A stretch of DNA of 64,000 nucleotides, taken from NCBI RefSeq assembly GCF_900115715.1, contig NZ_FOXM01000001.1, positions 310,001-374,000 on the forward strand, given 5' to 3'. Source of the DNA: Geopseudomonas sagittaria. Lineage in GTDB: Bacteria > Pseudomonadota > Gammaproteobacteria > Pseudomonadales > Pseudomonadaceae. Shown here in pieces: positions 4,542-56,299 of this stretch (the first letter of the stretch is position 1; every line of letters starts with the position of its first letter). The notes under the pieces are model-generated. The model was not told where the DNA came from, searched no databases, and saw nothing but the letters and a program-made list of their open reading frames with translations. The translations under genes and the position numbers were made by a program.

Positions 4542-4694
4542 AAACTGCGCCGGCCGGCAGATACTGGCCAATGGCCGGCAGGAAAAGCCGCTATTGCCCC
4601 TGTCATGACCCGGCCGCTTATTCCATAATGGGAACGCCAGCACGCCACGCTGGCCGAGCCTCCGCCCGCCGAACCAGGAGATGTCCGGATCGCC

Positions 4695-27150: not shown

Positions 27151-27679
27151 GACGCCGCTCGGCGCTTGGCCGGACCGATCAGGTCGCTGCGCCCATGGCC
27201 CTCAGCGCCTCGCGCAGCAGCGGCCAGTTCCTCGCGTAGGGTCCCGGCTGGTCGGCGCTGGAGTTGATACCCTTTGGGTCCTCCCCGGCCAGGCGACGGC
27301 CGGGAGGCCTCTGGCCGCCCAACTGTTCAAAAAACAGCCAATCGCGTAAAGCCCCCACCACATCAGGCCTGCAGCCATCGCCGCACAAGTTGTCCACAGA
27401 CTGCCGCACCGAAACTGTGTTCAGTCGCGCGAGCCCTCCTGCAGTGACCGCTCGAAATTTGCGCAAGCGCCGGAAGACCGCGCCACGCCTGGCACGCAGG
27501 CGGCTGCCAACAAGTTATTCACAGCCCCGCCCACTGCCCATGTGTACAACTTCCGCAACCGTCCTGCGGACAACCACGCAGGGCGAATGCGGACACTTTC
27601 GCGTCGAACCTGGACAGTTGTTCCGCGCCGCCGCCACCGACAATCAGCGCAACCCGCGTCATCGGTTAAGGAGTCCGTC
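27151..27679 (+). other. 529-nt non-coding stretch at left edge of the catabolic block
   Basis: It holds a short relic of ygiQ (27164-27230) and then no recognisable gene. Two near-identical 15-nt direct repeats of the form ACAAGTTRTYCACAG occur at about 27385-27399 and 27510-27524; both contain DnaA-box-like nonamers. A third similar nonamer in inverse orientation is at 27541-27549. The last part (TAAGGAG) is the ribosome-binding site of the serine dehydratase gene. Confidence 0.6.
27164..27230 (-). pseudogene. Orphan fragment of ygiQ (direct repeat of 45329-45396)
   Basis: 67 nt match the intact ygiQ gene at 45329-45396 with one substitution and one 1-nt gap, in the same orientation; similarity fades over the next few bases. 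In the minus frame the start of it reads [13 protein letters not shown], against [13 protein letters not shown] in the intact protein. The 1-nt gap breaks the ygiQ frame. There is no other part of ygiQ here, so this is a relic. Confidence 0.85.
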
Positions 27680-29088: not shown

Positions 29089-30090
29089 ATGACCGCCATG
29101 CCAAACCGGGCGTCCGAGCCACGCCCCCTGGAGTCCATCGCCTTCCTGCTGGTCGAGCACTTCAGCCTGGTCGCCCTGGCGGCAGCGGTCGAGCCGCTGC
29201 GAATGGCCAACCAGCTGAGCGGCCGCGGCCTGTTCCGCTGGCACACCCTGACCCTCGACGGCCGCCCGGTGCGCGCCAGCAACGGCATGCTGGTTTCCCC
29301 GGACGGCACCGCGCGCGGCCAGGCCGCGGCGGATGCCCTTATCCTCTGCGGCGGCGAGGGCGCGAGCGGGCACGACGACCCGGCGCACGCCCGCCTGCTG
29401 CGCGAGCAGGCCGCCCGCGGCGTGCACCTCGGTGCACTCGGCACGGGCAACTGGACGCTGGCGCACGCCGGCCTGCTCGACGGCTACCACTGCAGCAGCT
29501 GGGAGTGCCGGCCGGACCTGCACAAGGACTTCCCGGCCATCTCCCTCAGCCCGCGACACTTCGTCCTCGACCGCGACCGCTACACCGCGGCAGGCGGCAC
29601 CGCCGGGCAGGCGATGATGCTGCAGCTGATCGGCCGCAGCCACGGCGCCGAGCTGATGGCGGCGATCGACGAAACCCTGGCCTTCGCCCACCTGCCTGCC
29701 GAGCCGGCTGACCGACGCCTGGCGCCGGTGCGGCTGCGCGGCACCGGTCATCCCAAGCTCGCGGTAGTGATCCCGCTGATGGAGCACAACCTCGAGAAAC
29801 CCATCGAACTCGAGCTGTTGGCCGGTTACATCGCGTTGTCGCGGCGCCAGCTGGAGCGGCTGTTCCAGAAACACCTGAACTGCTCGCCGTCGCGCTACTA
29901 CCTCAAGCTGCGCCTGCTGCGTGCCCGCCAGCTGCTCAAGCAGACCGACCAGCCCATCATCGCGGTGGCCCGCAGCTGCGGATTCCTGTCGGCGCAGAGC
30001 TTTTCGCGCTGCTATCGCGAGCACTTCGGCATCCCGCCCAGCACCGAGCGCCCGACCAGTCCGCACGCGGACCACCCGCTCCTGCACTGA
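29089..30090 (+). CDS. GbdR-like AraC regulator with altered GATase1 domain
   Basis: A 333-residue transcription factor with an N-terminal DJ-1/PfpI (GATase1-like) sensor domain and a C-terminal AraC/XylS double HTH ([22 protein letters not shown], then [21 protein letters not shown]). The C-terminal half resembles GbdR, the glycine-betaine/dimethylglycine regulator. The sensor pocket differs: where the second regulator in this block has GICTGSH and LHWE, this protein reads GALGTGNW and SSWE, so the usual Cys and His are missing. It follows sdaB by 32 nt and precedes a strong terminator. Ligand unknown; creatine or sarcosine is a guess from context. Confidence 0.85.
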
Positions 30091-30111
30091 TCCCGCGTTC
30101 ACCCACCCTCG

Positions 30112-30149
30112 GGCCCGCCCGTGCAGACCGCACGGTCCGGGCCTTTTTT
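30112..30149 (+). terminator. Intrinsic terminator after AraC-type regulator
   Basis: A GC-rich hairpin with arms GGCCCGCCCGTGC and GCACGGTCCGGGCC (one bulged T) is followed by six T residues. It separates the sdaB-regulator pair from the creatinase gene. Confidence 0.85.
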
Positions 30150-30322
30150 GCAGCGCGCGCCCCGCCCCGGCAGGAAGCCGTGCGGACGTCGCAAGCAACA
30201 CACCGCTCATCTCGTGGCGAGGGTGCCCTTCACGGCGCCCTCCCCCGGGGCTATACCGACGGCCATTTTTCCGACGCCACGCGAGCCCCGCGGGGAAAGT
30301 TGACCCGCCGGCCAACGACAGC

Positions 30323-30358
30323 GGATCCGATCAACTTCAGGTCGGAAACGTGCAAAAA
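30323..30358 (+). promoter_or_regulatory. Copy A of 36-nt conserved upstream element (creatinase)
   Basis: This element matches 33343-33378, upstream of creatininase, at 30 of 36 positions. Both begin with GGATCC and end with the same TGCAAAAA; the core here is GTCGGAAACGTGCAAAAA. It is 86 nt before the creatinase ATG. Its placement suggests an operator for one of the two AraC-type regulators. Confidence 0.55.
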
Positions 30359-30444
30359 CCAACCGGTTGGCTCTGTTGCAATGCAATCCAACGGCACGCC
30401 AGAACCGGCGCGTCGTCCACACAACGATCACAAGGATTCACGCC

Positions 30445-31656
30445 ATGCAGATGCCCAAAACCATCCGGATCCGGAACGGCGAAAAGGTCAAGTCGACGTT
30501 CTCCGCCCAGGAATACGCCAACCGCCAGGCCAAGCTGCGCGCCCATCTGGCGGCGGAAAACCTCGACGCGGCGATCTTCACCTCGTACCACAACATCAAC
30601 TACTACAGCGACTTCCTGTACTGCTCGTTCGGCCGCCCCTACGCCCTGGTGGTGACCCAGGACGACGTGGTGACCATCAGCGCCAACATCGACGGCGGCC
30701 AGCCGTGGCGCCGCACCCAGGGCACCGACAACATCGTCTACACCGACTGGCAGCGCGACAACTACTTCGTCGCCATCCAGCAGGCGCTGCCCAAGGCACG
30801 GCGCATCGGCATCGAGTTCGACCACCTGAACCTGCAGAACCGCGACAAGCTGGCCGCCCGCTATCCGGAAGCCGAGCTGGTCGACGTCGCCGCACCGTGC
30901 ATGCGCATGCGCATGATCAAGTCCGCCGAGGAACACGTGATGATCCGTCACGGCGCGCGCATCGCCGACATCGGCGGCGCCGCGGTGGTCGAGGCGCTGC
31001 GCGACCAGGTGCCGGAATACGAAGTGGCCCTGCACGCCACCCAGGCCATGGTCCGCGCCATCGCCGACACCTTCGAGGACGTCGAGCTGATGGACACCTG
31101 GACCTGGTTCCAGTCCGGCATCAACACTGACGGCGCGCACAACCCGGTGACCACCCGCAAGGTGAACAAGGGCGACATCCTCAGCCTGAACTGCTTCCCG
31201 ATGATCGCCGGCTACTACACCGCGCTGGAACGCACCCTGTTCCTCGATCACTGCTCCGACGACCACCTGCGCCTGTGGCTGGCCAACGTCGAGGTACACG
31301 AAGCCGGCCTCAAGCTGATCAAGCCGGGCATGCGCTGCTGCGACATCGCCAAGGAGCTGAACGAGATCTTCCTCAGCCACGACCTGCTGCAGTACCGCAC
31401 CTTCGGCTACGGCCACTCCTTCGGCACCCTCAGCCACTACTACGGCCGCGAGGCCGGGCTGGAACTGCGCGAGGATATCGACACCGTGCTGGAGGCGGGC
31501 ATGGTGGTGTCCATCGAGCCGATGATCATGCTGCCCGAGGGCCTGCCGGGCGCCGGCGGCTACCGCGAGCACGACATCCTGATCGTCACCGAGGACGGCG
31601 CCGAGAACATCACCAAGTTCCCCTACGGTCCGGAGAAAAACATCATCCGCAAGTAA
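30445..31656 (+). CDS. Creatinase (creatine amidinohydrolase)
   Basis: A cytosolic pita-bread-fold hydrolase of 403 residues that splits creatine into sarcosine and urea. It is very close to the P. putida enzyme, with the same length and the same residue numbers: catalytic H232 (AHNP), E262 and E358 (SIEP), and carboxylate-binding R64 and R335. Like that enzyme it belongs to the aminopeptidase P fold but lacks the metal-binding set. The ATG at 30445 gives MQMPKTIRIRNG as in homologues. Downstream lie an MFS carrier and creatininase; its product sarcosine feeds SoxBDAG. Confidence 0.98.
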   Translation: MQMPKTIRIRNGEKVKSTFSAQEYANRQAKLRAHLAAENLDAAIFTSYHNINYYSDFLYCSFGRPYALVVTQDDVVTISANIDGGQPWRRTQGTDNIVYTDWQRDNYFVAIQQALPKARRIGIEFDHLNLQNRDKLAARYPEAELVDVAAPCMRMRMIKSAEEHVMIRHGARIADIGGAAVVEALRDQVPEYEVALHATQAMVRAIADTFEDVELMDTWTWFQSGINTDGAHNPVTTRKVNKGDILSLNCFPMIAGYYTALERTLFLDHCSDDHLRLWLANVEVHEAGLKLIKPGMRCCDIAKELNEIFLSHDLLQYRTFGYGHSFGTLSHYYGREAGLELREDIDTVLEAGMVVSIEPMIMLPEGLPGAGGYREHDILIVTEDGAENITKFPYGPEKNIIRK

Positions 31657-31995
31657 CCCGCAGAAGAGGCGGGCGCCAGGGTCGGCCTGTCGCCCCGCCA
31701 TTACGACCGGCTCAGTCCGGCCGTCTGCGCCCCCCCAGAAGGAGGATACAGAACGACACTCAGCGGCGACCGCCAGGGCCAGGCCCGGCGTCCTCCGCAA
31801 CACATGAACTACCAGCTGCCGAACAATCCATTACATAACAACAGAGGTGTGGGCGATGGTCAGGTTAAACTGCAGCACTCTCCGCCACGGAGAGCGCCGC
31901 GCGACATGTGCAGTGAACGAGCAGGGTGACCCGAGGCGGCCACCAGTTGAGACGACAGGGATCGAAACGGGTCAGCCGACCTGCGGAGGTGCCCG
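31657..31995 (+). other. 339-nt spacer between creatinase and MFS carrier
   Basis: It holds a short inverted repeat (CTCTCC/GGAGAG, 31879-31895) and a possible 47-codon leader ORF listed separately. I see no recognisable riboswitch and no strong terminator after creatinase. Confidence 0.5.
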
Positions 31996-31999
31996 ATGA
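31856..31999 (+). CDS. Possible 47-aa leader peptide coupled to the MFS gene
   Basis: An ATG at 31856 with AGAGGTG upstream opens a 47-codon frame. Its TGA overlaps the ATG of the MFS gene by 4 nt (ATGA), so ribosomes finishing it could re-initiate on the carrier. The sequence begins MVRLNCSTLRHGERR and is polar, Arg- and Thr-rich, with three Cys. I recognise no family. In GC-rich DNA a frame of this length can occur by chance, so it is only a candidate. Confidence 0.3.
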   Translation: MVRLNCSTLRHGERRATCAVNEQGDPRRPPVETTGIETGQPTCGGAR

Positions 32000-33336
32000 G
32001 CACGCTCAACGATTCCCTGGCCTACGGCCAGCCCAGCCGTAGCGAGACCGCGGCCGAACGCAGCACCCTGCGCCGCGCCGCCACCGCCAGCTTCATGGGC
32101 AACTTCGTCGAATGGTTCGACTACGCCGCCTACGGCTACCTGGCGGCGGTGATCGCGGTGGTGTTCTTCCCGGCGACCGACAAGACCACCGGCCTGCTGG
32201 CCACCTTCGCGGTGTTCGCCATCTCCTTCATCGTCCGCCCGATCGGCGGCATCGTCTGGGGCCACATCGGCGACCGCTACGGCCGGCGCAACGCCCTGTC
32301 GCTGTCGATCCTGATCATGTCCGGCTCGACCTTCTGCATCGCCTTTCTGCCCACCTACGCCCAGGTGGGCATGCTCGCCCCGCTGCTGCTCCTGCTGATC
32401 CGCCTGGTGCAGGGCTTCTCCGCCTCCGGCGAGTACGCCGGCGCGGCGGCCTTCCTCGCCGAGTACGCCCCGGACCGCAAGCGCGGCTTCTACACCTGCC
32501 TGGTGCCGGCCAGCACCGCCGCCGGCCTGCTGTTCGGCTCGCTATTCGCCGCCGGCCTCTACTCCCAGCTCGACAGCGAACAGCTGCACGGCTGGGGCTG
32601 GCGCCTGCCGTTCCTGCTCGCCGCCCCGCTGGGCCTGATCGGCCGCTACATCCGCCTGCATCTGGAGGACACCCCGAAGTTCCGCGAGATGGAAAAGGCC
32701 CTGGAGCACAAGGCGACCAAGCACAGGGCGCCGATCGGCGAGCTGCTCGGCGTGTACCGCAAGCGCGTGCTGGTGGCCATCGGCGTCACCTGCCTCAACG
32801 CGGTGGCCTTCTACCTGATCCTCAGCTACATGCCCACCTACCTGTCCACCGAGATGGGCATGACCGAGACCGACTCGTTCCTCGCCTCCACGGTGTCGCT
32901 GGCCACCTACATCGTCTTCATCTTCCTGATGGGCATGCTGTCCGATCGCTTCGGCCGCAAGACCATGCTGATCGCCGCCTCGCTGCTGTTCCTCGCCATC
33001 ACTGTGCCACTGTTCAGCGCGCTGGAGGGCCAGACCTTCGCCTTCATCCTGCTGATCCAGATCGCCTTCGGCCTGATGCTGGCGATGAACGACGGCACCC
33101 TGCCGTGCTTCCTCGCCGAGGTGTTCCCCACCCGCGTGCGCTACAGCGGCTTCGCCTTCAGCTTCAACACCGCCAACGCACTGTTCGGCGGCACCGCGCC
33201 GTTCATCGCCACCTGGCTGATCAGCCAGACCGGCGACAAGCTGGCGCCGGCCTGGATGCTGGTAGCCGCCGCGGGGGTGGCGCTGCTGGCGATGCTGTGC
33301 ATCCGCGAGACCGCCCACCAGGCGCTGAGCGACTGA
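31996..33336 (+). CDS. MHS-family MFS carrier, probable creatine/betaine-type symporter
   Basis: A 446-residue major facilitator with twelve predicted helices, of the metabolite:H+ symporter (ProP/KgtP-like) family. NFVEWFDYAAYGYLA in the first helix, RPIGGIVWGHIGDRYGRR (the MFS loop motif) and LIRLVQGFSASGEYAGAA are family marks. LGMLSDRFGRKTM-like sequence repeats in the second half. GGAGGT precedes the ATG at proper spacing. Position between creatinase and creatininase suggests uptake of creatine or a related quaternary or guanidino compound; that is an inference from context. Confidence 0.85.
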   Translation: MSTLNDSLAYGQPSRSETAAERSTLRRAATASFMGNFVEWFDYAAYGYLAAVIAVVFFPATDKTTGLLATFAVFAISFIVRPIGGIVWGHIGDRYGRRNALSLSILIMSGSTFCIAFLPTYAQVGMLAPLLLLLIRLVQGFSASGEYAGAAAFLAEYAPDRKRGFYTCLVPASTAAGLLFGSLFAAGLYSQLDSEQLHGWGWRLPFLLAAPLGLIGRYIRLHLEDTPKFREMEKALEHKATKHRAPIGELLGVYRKRVLVAIGVTCLNAVAFYLILSYMPTYLSTEMGMTETDSFLASTVSLATYIVFIFLMGMLSDRFGRKTMLIAASLLFLAITVPLFSALEGQTFAFILLIQIAFGLMLAMNDGTLPCFLAEVFPTRVRYSGFAFSFNTANALFGGTAPFIATWLISQTGDKLAPAWMLVAAAGVALLAMLCIRETAHQALSD

Positions 33337-33342
33337 AACACG

Positions 33343-33378
33343 GGATCCTGCCAACTTCGGGTCGGATTCGTGCAAAAA
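33343..33378 (+). promoter_or_regulatory. Copy B of 36-nt conserved upstream element (creatininase)
   Basis: A second copy of the element at 30323-30358, starting just 7 nt after the MFS stop and 126 nt before the creatininase ATG. Its core is GTCGGATTCGTGCAAAAA. The six differences cluster in three short patches, as expected of a duplicated operator under selection. Confidence 0.55.
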
Positions 33379-33503
33379 AACTTAACCGATATCTGCTATC
33401 AGGTGCGCAGCCACGCAGCGTGGCTCCCTCCGGAGCCTGCGCTGCCCTGCGAACAAAGGACACGGGCCCGGCCTCGGGCCTGTCCGCTCCATGGAGAACA
33501 ACA

Positions 33504-34280
33504 ATGAGCAAGAGCGTTTTCGTTGGCGAACTGACCTGGAAGGAATACGAAGCGCAGGTCGCCCAAGGTGACTGCGTGCTGATGCTGCCGGTCGGCGCCT
33601 TGGAACAGCATGGCCACCACATGTGCATGAACGTCGACGTGCTGCTGCCCACCGCGGTCTGCCAGCGGGTCGCCGAGCACATCGGCGCCCTGGTGCTGCC
33701 CGGCCTGCAGTACGGCTACAAGTCGCAGCAGAAGTCCGGCGGCGGCAACCACTTCCCCGGCACCACCAGCCTGGACGGCGCCACCCTGACCGGCACGGTG
33801 CAGGACATCATCCGCGAACTGGCCCGCCATGGCGCGCGGCGCCTGGTGCTGATGAACGGCCACTACGAGAACTCGATGTTCATCGTCGAGGGCATCGACC
33901 TGGCCCTGCGCGAGTTGCGCTACGCCGGCATCCACGACTTCAAGGTGGTGGTGCTGTCCTACTGGGACTTCGTCAAGGACCCGGCGGTGATCGAGCAGCT
34001 CTACCCCGAGGGCTTCCTCGGCTGGGACATCGAGCACGGCGGCGTCTTCGAGACCTCGCTGATGCTCGCCCTCTACCCCGGCCTGGTGCACCTGGACAAG
34101 GTGGTCGACCACCCGCCCGCCACCTTCCCGCCCTACGACGTCTTCCCGGTCGACCCGGCGCGCACGCCGGCGGCGGGCACCCTGTCGTCGGCGAAGACCG
34201 CCAGCCGGGAAAAGGGCGAACTGATCCTCGAGGTGTGCGTCAGCGGCATCGCCGAGGCCATCCGCCAGGAGTTCCCGTAA
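33504..34280 (+). CDS. crnA: Creatininase (creatinine amidohydrolase)
   Basis: A cytosolic binuclear-metal amidohydrolase of 258 residues that interconverts creatinine and creatine. It is very close to the P. putida enzyme, and the functional residues fall on the same numbers: E34, H36, D45, H120 and E122 for the metals, W154 and W174 over the active site, and E177-H178. It opens with MSKSVFVGELTWKEYE. Together with creatinase it gives creatinine to sarcosine plus urea. The next gene, 104 nt on, is an NCS1 permease likely to import the substrate. Confidence 0.98.
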   Translation: MSKSVFVGELTWKEYEAQVAQGDCVLMLPVGALEQHGHHMCMNVDVLLPTAVCQRVAEHIGALVLPGLQYGYKSQQKSGGGNHFPGTTSLDGATLTGTVQDIIRELARHGARRLVLMNGHYENSMFIVEGIDLALRELRYAGIHDFKVVVLSYWDFVKDPAVIEQLYPEGFLGWDIEHGGVFETSLMLALYPGLVHLDKVVDHPPATFPPYDVFPVDPARTPAAGTLSSAKTASREKGELILEVCVSGIAEAIRQEFP

Positions 34281-34384
34281 ACCAACCGCGCCCGAGGCGC
34301 GCCAAGCCTCGCCCTGAACTGCCGATCAGCGACTTCAACAACAAATACAAAAGGATCCGCGCGATCCGAGAGGAAGTTTCCGCC

Positions 34385-35779
34385 ATGTCGAATTCAGACG
34401 CACACAAAGAGTACGGTCTCAGCAAGATAGCCCCGCACGAACGCAGCTATGGCTTCGTCGACACGGTCTGGCTCTGGTTCGGCTCGGGAGTCAACACCGG
34501 ATCCTGGTTCTTCGGCGGCATGGCCGCGGCGCTGGGCATGATGTTCGTGCTGCAGTACAGCGTGCTGTGGCTGCCGCTGATGATGATTCCCTGGGCGGCG
34601 GTCGCCTACATCGGTTACCGCTACGGCGCCAGCACCGCGGTGGTGGCGCGTCCGTCGCTGGGCACCAAGGGCTCGCGGCTGACCGGCATCGCCCAGTTCC
34701 TGGTGCTGATCGGCTGGCCCAGCGTGAACAGCTTCATCGCCGCCATCTCGCTGAGCCACGTGTTCGGCGCCGCCTTCGACTGGCCGGTGTTCGGCCAGCC
34801 GGGCTCCACGGGACCGATGGTGCTCGGCATCCTGCTGACCGCCGTGGCCCAGGGGGTGATCGCCTTCCTCGGTCATGAGGCGATCCGCTACCTGGAGCGC
34901 ATCGCCGGCTTCCTGCTGCTGGTGCTGGGCGGCTGGGTCACCTACATCGTCCTGTCGAAGTGGAACCTCGAGCAGATCATGGCCTTCCAGGTCCAGAATC
35001 CGACCCACAGCGTGGCCTTCTTCATCGACCTGGCGTTCGGCTTCTCCTGGACCTGGGCGCAGGTGGCGGACTTCTCGCGCTTCGCCAAGACCGGCCGGGC
35101 GGCCACCGTGGGCAGCTGGCTGGGCCTGAACATCGGCCAGGGCTGGTTCATGCTGATCGGCGCGATCGGCACCATCGGCGTCGCCTTGCAGACCGGCAGC
35201 ATCGACCCGAACAACTCCGACCCGAGCTCCACCCTGGCCACCCTCGGCCTGGGCATGGTGTCCTTCCTGGTGCTGATCTTCGCCACCGTGAGCACCAACG
35301 TCAGCGTGCTTTACGGTTCGGGCATGGGCCTGCTCAGCGCCTTCAAGGGTCTGACGCCGAAGAAGGCCCTGGCGATCATCGTGGTGCTGCAGCTGGCGCT
35401 GTGCTTCGTGCCGATGGCGTTCGACTCGTTCCTGCACTACTTCGAAACCTTCCTCGGCGTGATCGGCGGCCTGTTCATTCCTCTATGGACCATCATCCTG
35501 ATGGACTACTTTGGCGTGCGCGGCAAGCGTCTTTCCGATGCTGACCTGTTCGCCGAGGCCGGTGGGGCCTACTACGGCAGCACGGGATGGAACGCGGCGG
35601 GGATCACGTCGCTGGTATTGGGCTTTGCGGTGTACTTCGTCCTGGCCCACGTCTTCAAGGATGTTGCCGCCCAGACTACCGCGAGCATCCCGGCGATCCT
35701 GGTGTCTGGCTTGGCCTACGCGCTGCTGGTGAAGAAGCCTGCCGTGGCGCTTAGCGCGAGTTTCGAGCGAGGCGCCTGA
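34385..35779 (+). CDS. NCS1-family (cytosine-permease-like) transporter, probable creatinine importer
   Basis: A 464-residue inner-membrane protein with about twelve helices of the nucleobase:cation-symport-1 family. WLWFGSGVNTGSWFFGGMAA in the first helix, the RPSLGTKGSRLTGIAQFLVLIGW segment and FSWTWAQVADFSRFAK are family blocks. Creatinine is a small imidazolone similar in shape to NCS1 substrates. The gene follows creatininase and is closed by a terminator. Substrate choice is inferred from context only. A GAGAGGAAG ribosome-binding site lies before the ATG. Confidence 0.85.
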   Translation: MSNSDAHKEYGLSKIAPHERSYGFVDTVWLWFGSGVNTGSWFFGGMAAALGMMFVLQYSVLWLPLMMIPWAAVAYIGYRYGASTAVVARPSLGTKGSRLTGIAQFLVLIGWPSVNSFIAAISLSHVFGAAFDWPVFGQPGSTGPMVLGILLTAVAQGVIAFLGHEAIRYLERIAGFLLLVLGGWVTYIVLSKWNLEQIMAFQVQNPTHSVAFFIDLAFGFSWTWAQVADFSRFAKTGRAATVGSWLGLNIGQGWFMLIGAIGTIGVALQTGSIDPNNSDPSSTLATLGLGMVSFLVLIFATVSTNVSVLYGSGMGLLSAFKGLTPKKALAIIVVLQLALCFVPMAFDSFLHYFETFLGVIGGLFIPLWTIILMDYFGVRGKRLSDADLFAEAGGAYYGSTGWNAAGITSLVLGFAVYFVLAHVFKDVAAQTTASIPAILVSGLAYALLVKKPAVALSASFERGA

Positions 35780-35805
35780 CAGGCCCGCGATCTCGATGCT
35801 GAAGC

Positions 35806-35840
35806 ATGCCGCCCCCTGAGAAGGGGGCGGCATCGTTGTT
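35806..35840 (+). terminator. Intrinsic terminator after NCS1 permease
   Basis: A 12-bp perfect stem (35806-35817 / 35822-35833) with a GAGA loop is followed by CGTTGTTTT. It closes the creatinine gene unit before the convergent regulator. Confidence 0.85.
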
Positions 35841-35954
35841 TTCAGGGGACATGGGCCGCGGTTGGCCCCATTGGCTTTGCAGGTGCGCTGTCGGCGCTGG
35901 TTGGTCGGCGCGGTGCCCACTGATGGCCATCACGAAGGGCTACGCGGCTGCCCC

Positions 35955-36968
35955 TCAACTGTGCAGCGGACTCTGCTTGCGCTCGCCGCGCGGCGAGTGG
36001 CCGAAGAAGCGGCTGTAGCACTTGGAGAAGTGCGCCGGCGAGGCGAAGCCGCAGGCCAGGGCGACGTCGCGTACCTGCGACTCGCTGCGCAGCAGCAGAT
36101 CGCGAGCGCGGCTCAGACGCAGCTGCAGGTAGTACTGGCTCGGCGTGTGCTCCAGGTACTTGTGGAACAGCCGCTCCAGCTGGCGCACCGACACCTCGTT
36201 GAGCTGAGCCAGCTCCTCCAGCTCCAGCGGCTCTTCCAGATTGGCCTCCATGATCGCGACTATCTGGCTCAGCTTGGGCTGGGCGTGGCCGAGCTTCTGG
36301 CGCAGCGGCACGCGCTGCTGCTCACGGGCGCCGCGCATGCGGTCGCAGAGCAGCAGTTCGGCCGCGCGGGTGGCGATCTCCACGCCGTTCGGCTCGCGGG
36401 CGATCAGCTGCAGGGTCATGTCCATCGACGCGGTGCCGCCGGAACAGGTGTAGCGGTCGCGGTCCAGCTCGAACAGCTGGTTGGAGATGACGATGTCCGG
36501 GAAGCGTTCCTTGACCTGCTCGATATCCTCCCAGTGCAGGGTGCAGCGATAACCGTTGAGCAGGCCGGAACAAGCCAGCAGGTGGCTGCCCGTACAGATG
36601 CCAGCCAACGGTATGCCGTGCGCGGCCTGGCGGCGCAGCCAGTTGATCAGCTCGCGGGGATATTTCGCTGGCATGGGGTTGGAGCCGACCACGAAGATCG
36701 CATCCAGCTGCGGTACATCCGCGAGGTAATGATCGGGCACCACGCGCATGCCGTTGCTGGCCTGTACCGGCTCGAGGTCCTGGGCGATCACCAGGGTACG
36801 GTACAGCGGTCGGCGGGCCGCCAGGTTGGTCATGCGCAAGGTCTCGATCGCCGAGGCGAAACCGATGGTGGTGAAGTTGGGGATCAACAGGAAACCGAAG
36901 GTCTTGGCCTGCCCGCTGTCCGAGCTGACCGTCGCAGCCAGATTCGCTGCCGTCGACACACGCGCCAT
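35955..36968 (-). CDS. SouR/GbdR-type GATase1-AraC regulator
   Basis: A 337-residue transcription factor with an N-terminal DJ-1/PfpI-like sensor domain and a C-terminal AraC HTH (VSVRQLERLFHKYLEHTPSQYY, GFASPAHFSKCYSRFFGHSPRGER). The sensor keeps the usual GICTGSHLLA Cys and the LHWED motif. Relatives such as SouR, GbdR and CdhR respond to sarcosine, glycine betaine/dimethylglycine and carnitine. It is divergent from glyA-soxBDAG-purU across a 470-nt region, so a sarcosine-responsive activator of that operon is the most likely role. It is convergent with the NCS1 permease. Confidence 0.88.
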   Translation of the reverse strand: MARVSTAANLAATVSSDSGQAKTFGFLLIPNFTTIGFASAIETLRMTNLAARRPLYRTLVIAQDLEPVQASNGMRVVPDHYLADVPQLDAIFVVGSNPMPAKYPRELINWLRRQAAHGIPLAGICTGSHLLACSGLLNGYRCTLHWEDIEQVKERFPDIVISNQLFELDRDRYTCSGGTASMDMTLQLIAREPNGVEIATRAAELLLCDRMRGAREQQRVPLRQKLGHAQPKLSQIVAIMEANLEEPLELEELAQLNEVSVRQLERLFHKYLEHTPSQYYLQLRLSRARDLLLRSESQVRDVALACGFASPAHFSKCYSRFFGHSPRGERKQSPLHS

Positions 36969-37438
36969 TACTGCTACTCCTCACGGGCCGTGCCGCAGCG
37001 GACAGGGACTGCCCCAGGCGTTTCGGCCGATTCTTGTTCTTGTTTTCAGGGAGGTCTGCGAGCCTCCGCAACCGATCTTACACCCATTCGCGACATCCTC
37101 CAGTGCCGTCCGACGATGCCCCCCGCCATCGACCTGGGACACACGTGCCGCGCTGTGTCGCGCGCTGCGCACCTGACCCGCCCTGCCCGTGCAGGCCAGT
37201 TTGAGCATTTTCACGTCGCAAATAGGCAAATGGGCCGCCGGGCTATTTCGCACAATCGGCTCAACAAGCTTTCCAGCCGGCTCGCGCCGGCGGCGCCAGC
37301 TCTCTCCGGACAAGTGGCGACACGGACCGGCGAGGCGCCCCACTCAGCTTAGGGGGGGCGGAAGGTACGCCCCGATCAACCCGGGCCTGGGCAGCCCGAT
37401 TCCAACTGGCGACCACGAATGTCGCAGGGAGATCCGAG
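36969..37438 (+). other. 470-nt divergent regulatory region, regulator / glyA-sox
   Basis: No gene is recognised. It must hold promoters for both the regulator (minus) and glyA-soxBDAG (plus). A candidate operator-like sequence at 37215-37232 is listed separately. I find no clear sigma-70 promoter and no glycine riboswitch. Confidence 0.5.
37215..37232 (+). promoter_or_regulatory. Operator-like sequence upstream of glyA
   Basis: GTCGCAAATAGGCAAATG shares the form GTCGnAAnnnnGCAAAnn with the cores of the two conserved elements before creatinase and creatininase. It is much weaker than the A/B pair and lies 207 nt before the glyA ATG. Confidence 0.3.
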
Positions 37439-38692
<1,254 letters not shown>

Positions 38693-45074: not shown

Positions 45075-47342
<2,268 letters not shown>

Positions 47343-56052: not shown

Positions 56053-56139
56053 GCCCAGGTGGCGGAATTGGTAGACGCGCTGGTTTCAGGTATCAGTGGT
56101 GGCAACACCGTGGAAGTTCGAGTCTTCTCCTGGGCACCA
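56053..56139 (+). tRNA. tRNA-Leu(CAG), first copy
   Basis: An 87-nt class II tRNA with encoded CCA. The acceptor arms are GCCCAGG / CCTGGGC. The anticodon stem is CTGGT/ATCAG with loop TTCAGGT, placing CAG at 56087-56089; it reads CUG, the main Leu codon here. The long variable arm is GGTGGCAACACC. It is the first of a tandem pair. Confidence 0.96.
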
Positions 56140-56212
56140 ATTCTAAACATCAGCTTCGGCTGATGTGCAGTAAGAAGCAGTCAGCTTCGTCGTGTAACGG
56201 CAAAAATGGCAC

Positions 56213-56299
56213 GCCCAGATGGCGGAATTGGTAGACGCGCTGGTTTCAGGTATCAGTGGTGGCAACACCGTGGAAGTTCGAGTCTTCTTCTGGGCACCA
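56213..56299 (+). tRNA. tRNA-Leu(CAG), second copy
   Basis: The same 87-nt tRNA, 73 nt after the first. It differs at two positions that pair with each other: the acceptor arms are GCCCAGA / TCTGGGC, so a G-C pair has become A-U. The anticodon CAG is at 56247-56249. A classical terminator follows directly. Confidence 0.96.

Follow-up and report, generated by a model that had tools for sequence, protein, structure and literature searches.

The window, a 64,000-nucleotide stretch of the Geopseudomonas sagittaria genome, carries a gene block in the order L-serine dehydratase, araC1, creatinase, MFS symporter, creatininase, NCS1 permease, araC2, glyA, sarcosine oxidase-type genes and a formyltransferase-type gene. 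The gene at 30445–31656 (plus strand) was assigned from its Creatinase_N and Peptidase_M24 domains and its relatives; it reaches no NCBIfam cut-off, and the name creatinase is one that we assume from the earlier note and the setting. The MFS symporter (31996–33336) and the NCS1-type permease (34385–35779), both on the plus strand, were identified by profile and domain matches, and the creatininase (33504–34280, plus strand) matches TIGR04448 with 381 bits against a cut-off of 235. Two regulators, araC1 (29089–30090, plus strand) and araC2 (35955–36968, minus strand), each combine a DJ-1/PfpI domain with an AraC helix-turn-helix and are thus of the GATase1-AraC (GATR) type. glyA, for serine hydroxymethyltransferase, lies at 37439–38692 (plus strand) with the sarcosine oxidase-type genes behind it.

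The creatine/sarcosine block is flanked by a 78-bp repeat, 94% identical, at 27161–27237 and 45326–45403. The right copy lies in the 3' part of a gene with Radical_SAM_N and DUF3362 domains, presumably of the YgiQ type, and the left copy is a remnant. In genomes G001, G005, G006 and G007, all lacking a close creatinase, the gene to the left of the block adjoins the YgiQ-type gene; no such left neighbour was present in the stretch fetched for G003 and G004. The block therefore appears to have been inserted as an island. Further along the window, at 56053–56299, are two tandem near-identical tRNA-Leu (CAG) genes.

The earlier note had described a 36-nt element repeated before creatinase and creatininase, and its copies (30323–30358 and 33343–33378) are indeed identical at 30 of 36 positions, with little match in their flanks. 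Ungapped extension gives 41 nt at 80% identity. On the left the element starts a few bases earlier than drawn in the note, at about 30319 and 33339; the note's distance of 86 nt to the creatinase ATG is correct, and the 126 nt given for creatininase recomputes to 125 nt. An all-pairs comparison of direct 36-mers in the window returned at least 30 of 36 identities only for the element pair, the tandem tRNA-Leu pair and the 78-bp repeat (27161/45326). The genome search that the note had proposed found no further copies of the 26-base core in the 4.6-Mb genome with up to three mismatches. A site model, built from creatinase promoters with the first window element included, scores the pair at 58.8 and 47.6, followed in the window by 12.7 (37194–37232) and then −0.1; its maximum over 20 random 64-kb windows is 2.2. 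Before the NCS1 gene the best score is −0.1, in agreement with the note's statement that nothing similar lies there. The note had overlooked a 21-bp direct repeat inside the element, a −10-like sequence downstream of it and a divergent member before glyA. There are no Rfam matches at gathering scores in 20000–50000, and none of the papers listed in a literature search dealt with this operator.

We scanned related genomes with the creatinase as query; the best 80 matches correspond to 78 loci, and all counts refer to the matches listed. These comprise 56 Pseudomonas/Stutzerimonas loci with creatinases of 84–98% identity (L008–L063) and 22 more distant loci (L064–L085). Among the matches listed, every close creatinase copy in the 56 loci (57 of 57) has the site 78–97 nt upstream, with a lowest score of 45.8; in the distant loci all scores in the 220 nt before creatinase are below 0 (23 of 23 copies). 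Because the model was built from the promoters of the close copies, these values are partly circular; a typed 24-letter consensus, used instead of the score model, gives the same alignment. No site accompanies three creatinase-like copies at 66–67% identity (the second copy in G002, G109 and G182), and the creatinase-like gene (66–67%) of L007, L121 and L122 lacks the operator. Two of the distant loci, of P. protegens and a relative (L067 and L069; creatinase 72%), have a diverged form about 127 nt upstream of creatinase, a degenerate GGTCGG site with TCTG..AAT at the usual spacing from it, and no close araC2 in the locus.

Across the 56 distinct creatinase promoters among the matches listed, conservation covers a block that extends, counted from the first base of CAAC, from about −14 to +27. 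This block is a direct repeat: the correlation at lag 21 is 0.52 (next best 0.22), a value matched by 30 of 20,000 column permutations, and mean identities at this lag are 7.86 of 16, a figure that no other lag between 14 and 26 brings above 6.18. The same 21-bp spacing separates the I1 and I2 half-sites of AraC. In the window, operator 1, before creatinase (30319–30358, plus strand), consists of an upstream half-site at 30319–30334, a downstream half-site at 30340–30355 and an A-tract to 30358; operator 2, before creatininase (33339–33378, plus strand), has its half-sites at 33339–33354 and 33360–33375. GGTCG occurs in 56 of 56 creatinase promoters and GGTCGG in 55 of 56 (among the matches listed). 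The site resembles a GATR operator both in its pair of direct half-sites, repeated every 21 bp, and in its GTCGC-type core, with G rather than C as the sixth base. Its downstream half-site, GGTCGG-N6-RCAA, is much stronger than the upstream one; the upstream half-sites in the window are weak (9/18 and 8/18 identities to their own downstream half-sites), and P. putida-type sites have a degenerate upstream half.

Downstream of the operator block, 56 of 56 distinct creatinase promoters (among the matches listed) have TCTG at offsets 40–43 and AAT at 48–50, and the stretch in between is poorly conserved. In the window these bases belong to a predicted extended −10 of the creatinase promoter, TGTTGCAAT, at 30374–30382 (plus strand), from which a transcription start near 30390 is predicted. 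The predicted extended −10 of the creatininase promoter, TGCTATCAG, at 33394–33402 (plus strand), has the TG at the shared offset and lacks the AAT of the other promoters; its hexamer TATCAG differs from the (S)(S)AAT typical of the others. A distance of 17 nt separates the −10-like hexamer from positions 22–27, which are themselves mostly AAAAAA. No consensus sigma-70 promoter pair is found in 29900–37500, in keeping with an activator-dependent promoter. Because a −35 hexamer is missing and the downstream half-site touches the −35 region, the site occupies the position of a class II activator; as in class II AraC-activated promoters, it abuts or overlaps a region without a good −35 and the −10 follows at a fixed distance.

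The same arrangement recurs before creatininase. Among the matches listed, the site precedes creatininase, or a gene run ending in creatininase, in 20 of 25 Pseudomonas/Stutzerimonas loci. Six of these have the window's gene order, with the site 72–125 nt upstream of creatininase, and in eight the creatininase gene is inverted and has its own site 90–142 nt upstream (both among the matches listed). Weaker creatininase sites, which match 17–18 of 24 consensus letters and fall below the score threshold, are present in L024, L027 and L063. In L017–L019 the site lies 4.2–4.3 kb upstream of creatininase on the same strand, before a gene run that consists of ABC-transporter genes by Pfam in L017 and was judged by ORF sizes in L019. 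Creatininase directly follows creatinase without a site of its own in L015, L020, L021 and L028, and L033 has a creatininase with no site recognised by the consensus or the score model.

Outside the creatinase and glyA classes, 28 further sites were examined: 10 belong to creatininase or to the gene run that ends in it, 8 to an inverted creatininase, and most of the other 10 precede ABC-transporter genes (L024:7340 has no assigned ABC gene). All 28 have TG at the shared offset and 25 have AAT, the window's creatininase promoter being among the three without it. Operator and −10 precede a gene run that includes a solute-binding protein, a permease or an ABC ATPase at L017:10876, L020:1760, L027:3063 and L031:13142 by Pfam, and a similar run by frame sizes at L021:2774, L023:14720 and L028:2879. 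These ABC genes are a candidate creatine or creatinine importer in other Pseudomonas. In L014 (P. thermotolerans), at 4574–4600, creatininase is missing along with the second operator and NCS1 codons 1–87, and similarity to ncs1 begins at codon 88, exactly where the mfs gene ends; since this looks like one deletion, which explains the joint loss, it is not independent evidence.

The earlier note read the pair as a shared operator for one of the AraC-type regulators, a reading that gains support from how the sites are conserved and placed, from their spacing to the promoter and from their persistence where creatininase has been rearranged. Both elements are very probably operators of a GATase1-AraC activator, most likely araC2, which is favoured by co-occurrence in 26 of 26 genomes and by a quick tree. 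Among 248 genomes of the family, some of which are the same contigs as the named loci, 26 have a creatinase of at least 84% identity; exactly these 26 also have an araC2 of at least 72%, and the site is present in all of them. The next relative of araC2 is at 51%. This co-occurrence partly reflects linkage because araC2 is usually clustered with creatinase; in G003 the two genes lie on a single contig at a distance of 1.5 Mb. No araC2 match at E 1e-60 is found in G109 or G182.

In the quick tree, which carried long-branch warnings and in which the araC2 group was chosen by at least 66% identity and the protein of KT2440 itself was left out, 51 rows fall under one fork with support 100. This group includes proteins of P. 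putida loci ordered creatinase-MFS-regulator, and we take the regulator beside creatinase in those loci to be CahR. With its GATase1 (DJ-1/PfpI) and AraC helix-turn-helix domains and its place in the P. putida clade, araC2 is a candidate CahR ortholog. Neither araC1 (393 bits) nor araC2 (387 bits) reaches the cut-off of 480 for the GbdR equivalog NF052371. The GbdR family has 16 matches in the genome, and beyond these two only one exceeds 60 bits (275 bits, on contig C25); we infer that this third GATR is ArgR-like since it lies beside an astC/argD-type transaminase gene.

The most serious competitor of araC2 is araC1, a GATR of the same family that immediately precedes creatinase in the window and adjoins it in G003 as well, where araC2 is 1.5 Mb away. 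At 60% identity or more araC1 is listed in 11 of 248 genomes, ten of them with a close creatinase; however, the remaining genome, G004, has araC1 at 80% and neither creatinase nor site. Among the listed loci of P. fluorescens and P. putida type, moreover, nearby araC1 matches are mostly at 44% or less (exceptions are L025, with a short match at 57%, and L033, at 56%), yet the site is present, although more diverged araC1-like genes in the equivalent position of L011, L012 and L014 mean that the 60% threshold gives no clean test of absence. We therefore consider it improbable that the operators serve araC1 instead of araC2.

Still less likely is that the sites belong to another GATR, such as the ArgR-like gene on C25, or to several GATRs jointly. 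This would accord with the half-site logic common to ArgR and CdhR in the available text of PMC10963909 and PMC5806209, and with the overlap of GbdR and CdhR sites at one place in P. aeruginosa that the available part of PMC5806209 describes. Matches to a site pattern, however, track the close creatinase: they occur in 25 of the 26 genomes that have it and, as single matches with two mismatches, in 5 of the 222 others (a backwards control pattern has matches in four genomes).

That the elements are sigma-54 (−24/−12) promoters is very hard to sustain. Both window copies have GG-N10-GC spacing, and the GG is invariant, but the −12 doublet is AC instead of GC in 39 of 56 distinct creatinase promoters (among the matches listed) and a separate −10-like sequence is invariant downstream; the reading was rejected on the missing GC. 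A recent duplication or mobile repeat without regulatory role, as 83% identity of two copies within one window might suggest, was rejected as well, since the flanks are unrelated, the genome has no other copy of the 26-base core at up to three mismatches and in 20 of 20 sites at 10 loci the mean identity within a class across loci exceeds the identity to the partner site within the locus (some margins are below one base), so that the two elements are old, separate orthologous classes and not recent copies of each other.

A third, divergent operator (operator 3) precedes glyA at 37194–37232 (plus strand; score 12.7), with a −10-like CACAAT at 37251–37256. Its class, mostly with a GTCGCAAA core, is found in 25 of 248 genomes, including seven without a close creatinase (G004, G017, G033, G100, G139, G165 and G208); in G004 a 417-codon frame, the length of glyA, lies behind it. 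Since the class occurs in creatinase-less genomes, we do not assign the site to araC2, and it is probably a related operator of another GATR, for which araC1 is possibly the regulator in this genome.

For araC2 as activator of operators 1 and 2, we propose the following mechanism, which extrapolates from the arrangement of sites and promoters. An inducer, creatine and perhaps creatinine, would bind araC2, which would then fill both tandem half-sites; with their 21-bp period these share one face of the helix. Since the downstream one abuts or overlaps a −35 region without a consensus hexamer, araC2 would recruit sigma-70 RNA polymerase to the extended −10 by class II activation. Operator 1 would drive creatinase-MFS and operator 2 creatininase-NCS1, so that, with one operator per gene pair, uptake and hydrolysis of creatine and creatinine would rise together. 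The two regulated transcripts claimed by the earlier note are plausible in view of the two promoter-like regions and a terminator-like hairpin after the NCS1 permease gene (35806–35833, plus strand; eight such patterns in the region versus 3.5 in shuffles), and there may be read-through from the first transcript into the second.

Hinkel et al. reportedly described in 2022 the regulation of creatine use by CahR in Pseudomonas putida KT2440, CahR being, as we assume, the AraC-type regulator adjoining creatinase and an MFS gene. The system in the window resembles this one in that the araC2 group takes in P. putida loci of that gene order, and may differ from it in that the same operator here also precedes creatininase-NCS1.

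In the available part of PMC5806209, CdhR has GGTCGC half-sites with a 15-bp spacer that are said to resemble GbdR, SouR and ArgR sites, and the ARG boxes in the available part of PMC10963909 are TGTCGCN6GNAA in tandem, 5 bp apart; as given there, both arrangements imply a 21-bp period. Like the CdhR and GbdR sites of P. aeruginosa in that text (PMC5806209), those studied here are direct GGTCGC-type half-sites with a 21-bp period and accompany GATase1-AraC regulators. Unlike CdhR, described in the same part as class I with a site well upstream (PMC5806209), the window site abuts the −35 region in a class II position. The ARG boxes of ArgR, so far as the text of PMC10963909 was available, share the tandem half-sites and the 21-bp period, whereas the half-site here is GGTCGG-N6-RCAA and its occurrence tracks creatinase.

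For creatinine use, the analysis provides an operator and a promoter that can be put to the test, and it would extend the creatine regulon to creatininase and the NCS1 permease and, in other species, to a candidate creatine/creatinine ABC importer. We tentatively suggest, at slightly less than even odds, a lineage-wide creatine/creatinine regulon under one GATR, in which the module is kept before creatininase, creatininase-NCS1 or ABC uptake genes through reshuffling, wherever it was needed, and a related GATR-class operator couples in the next step, glyA and sarcosine oxidase. If this is true, creatinine use would be wired through a creatine sensor, with feed-forward across two regulators. 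The loci also form a natural series of how a metabolic regulon keeps its wiring while its genes move.
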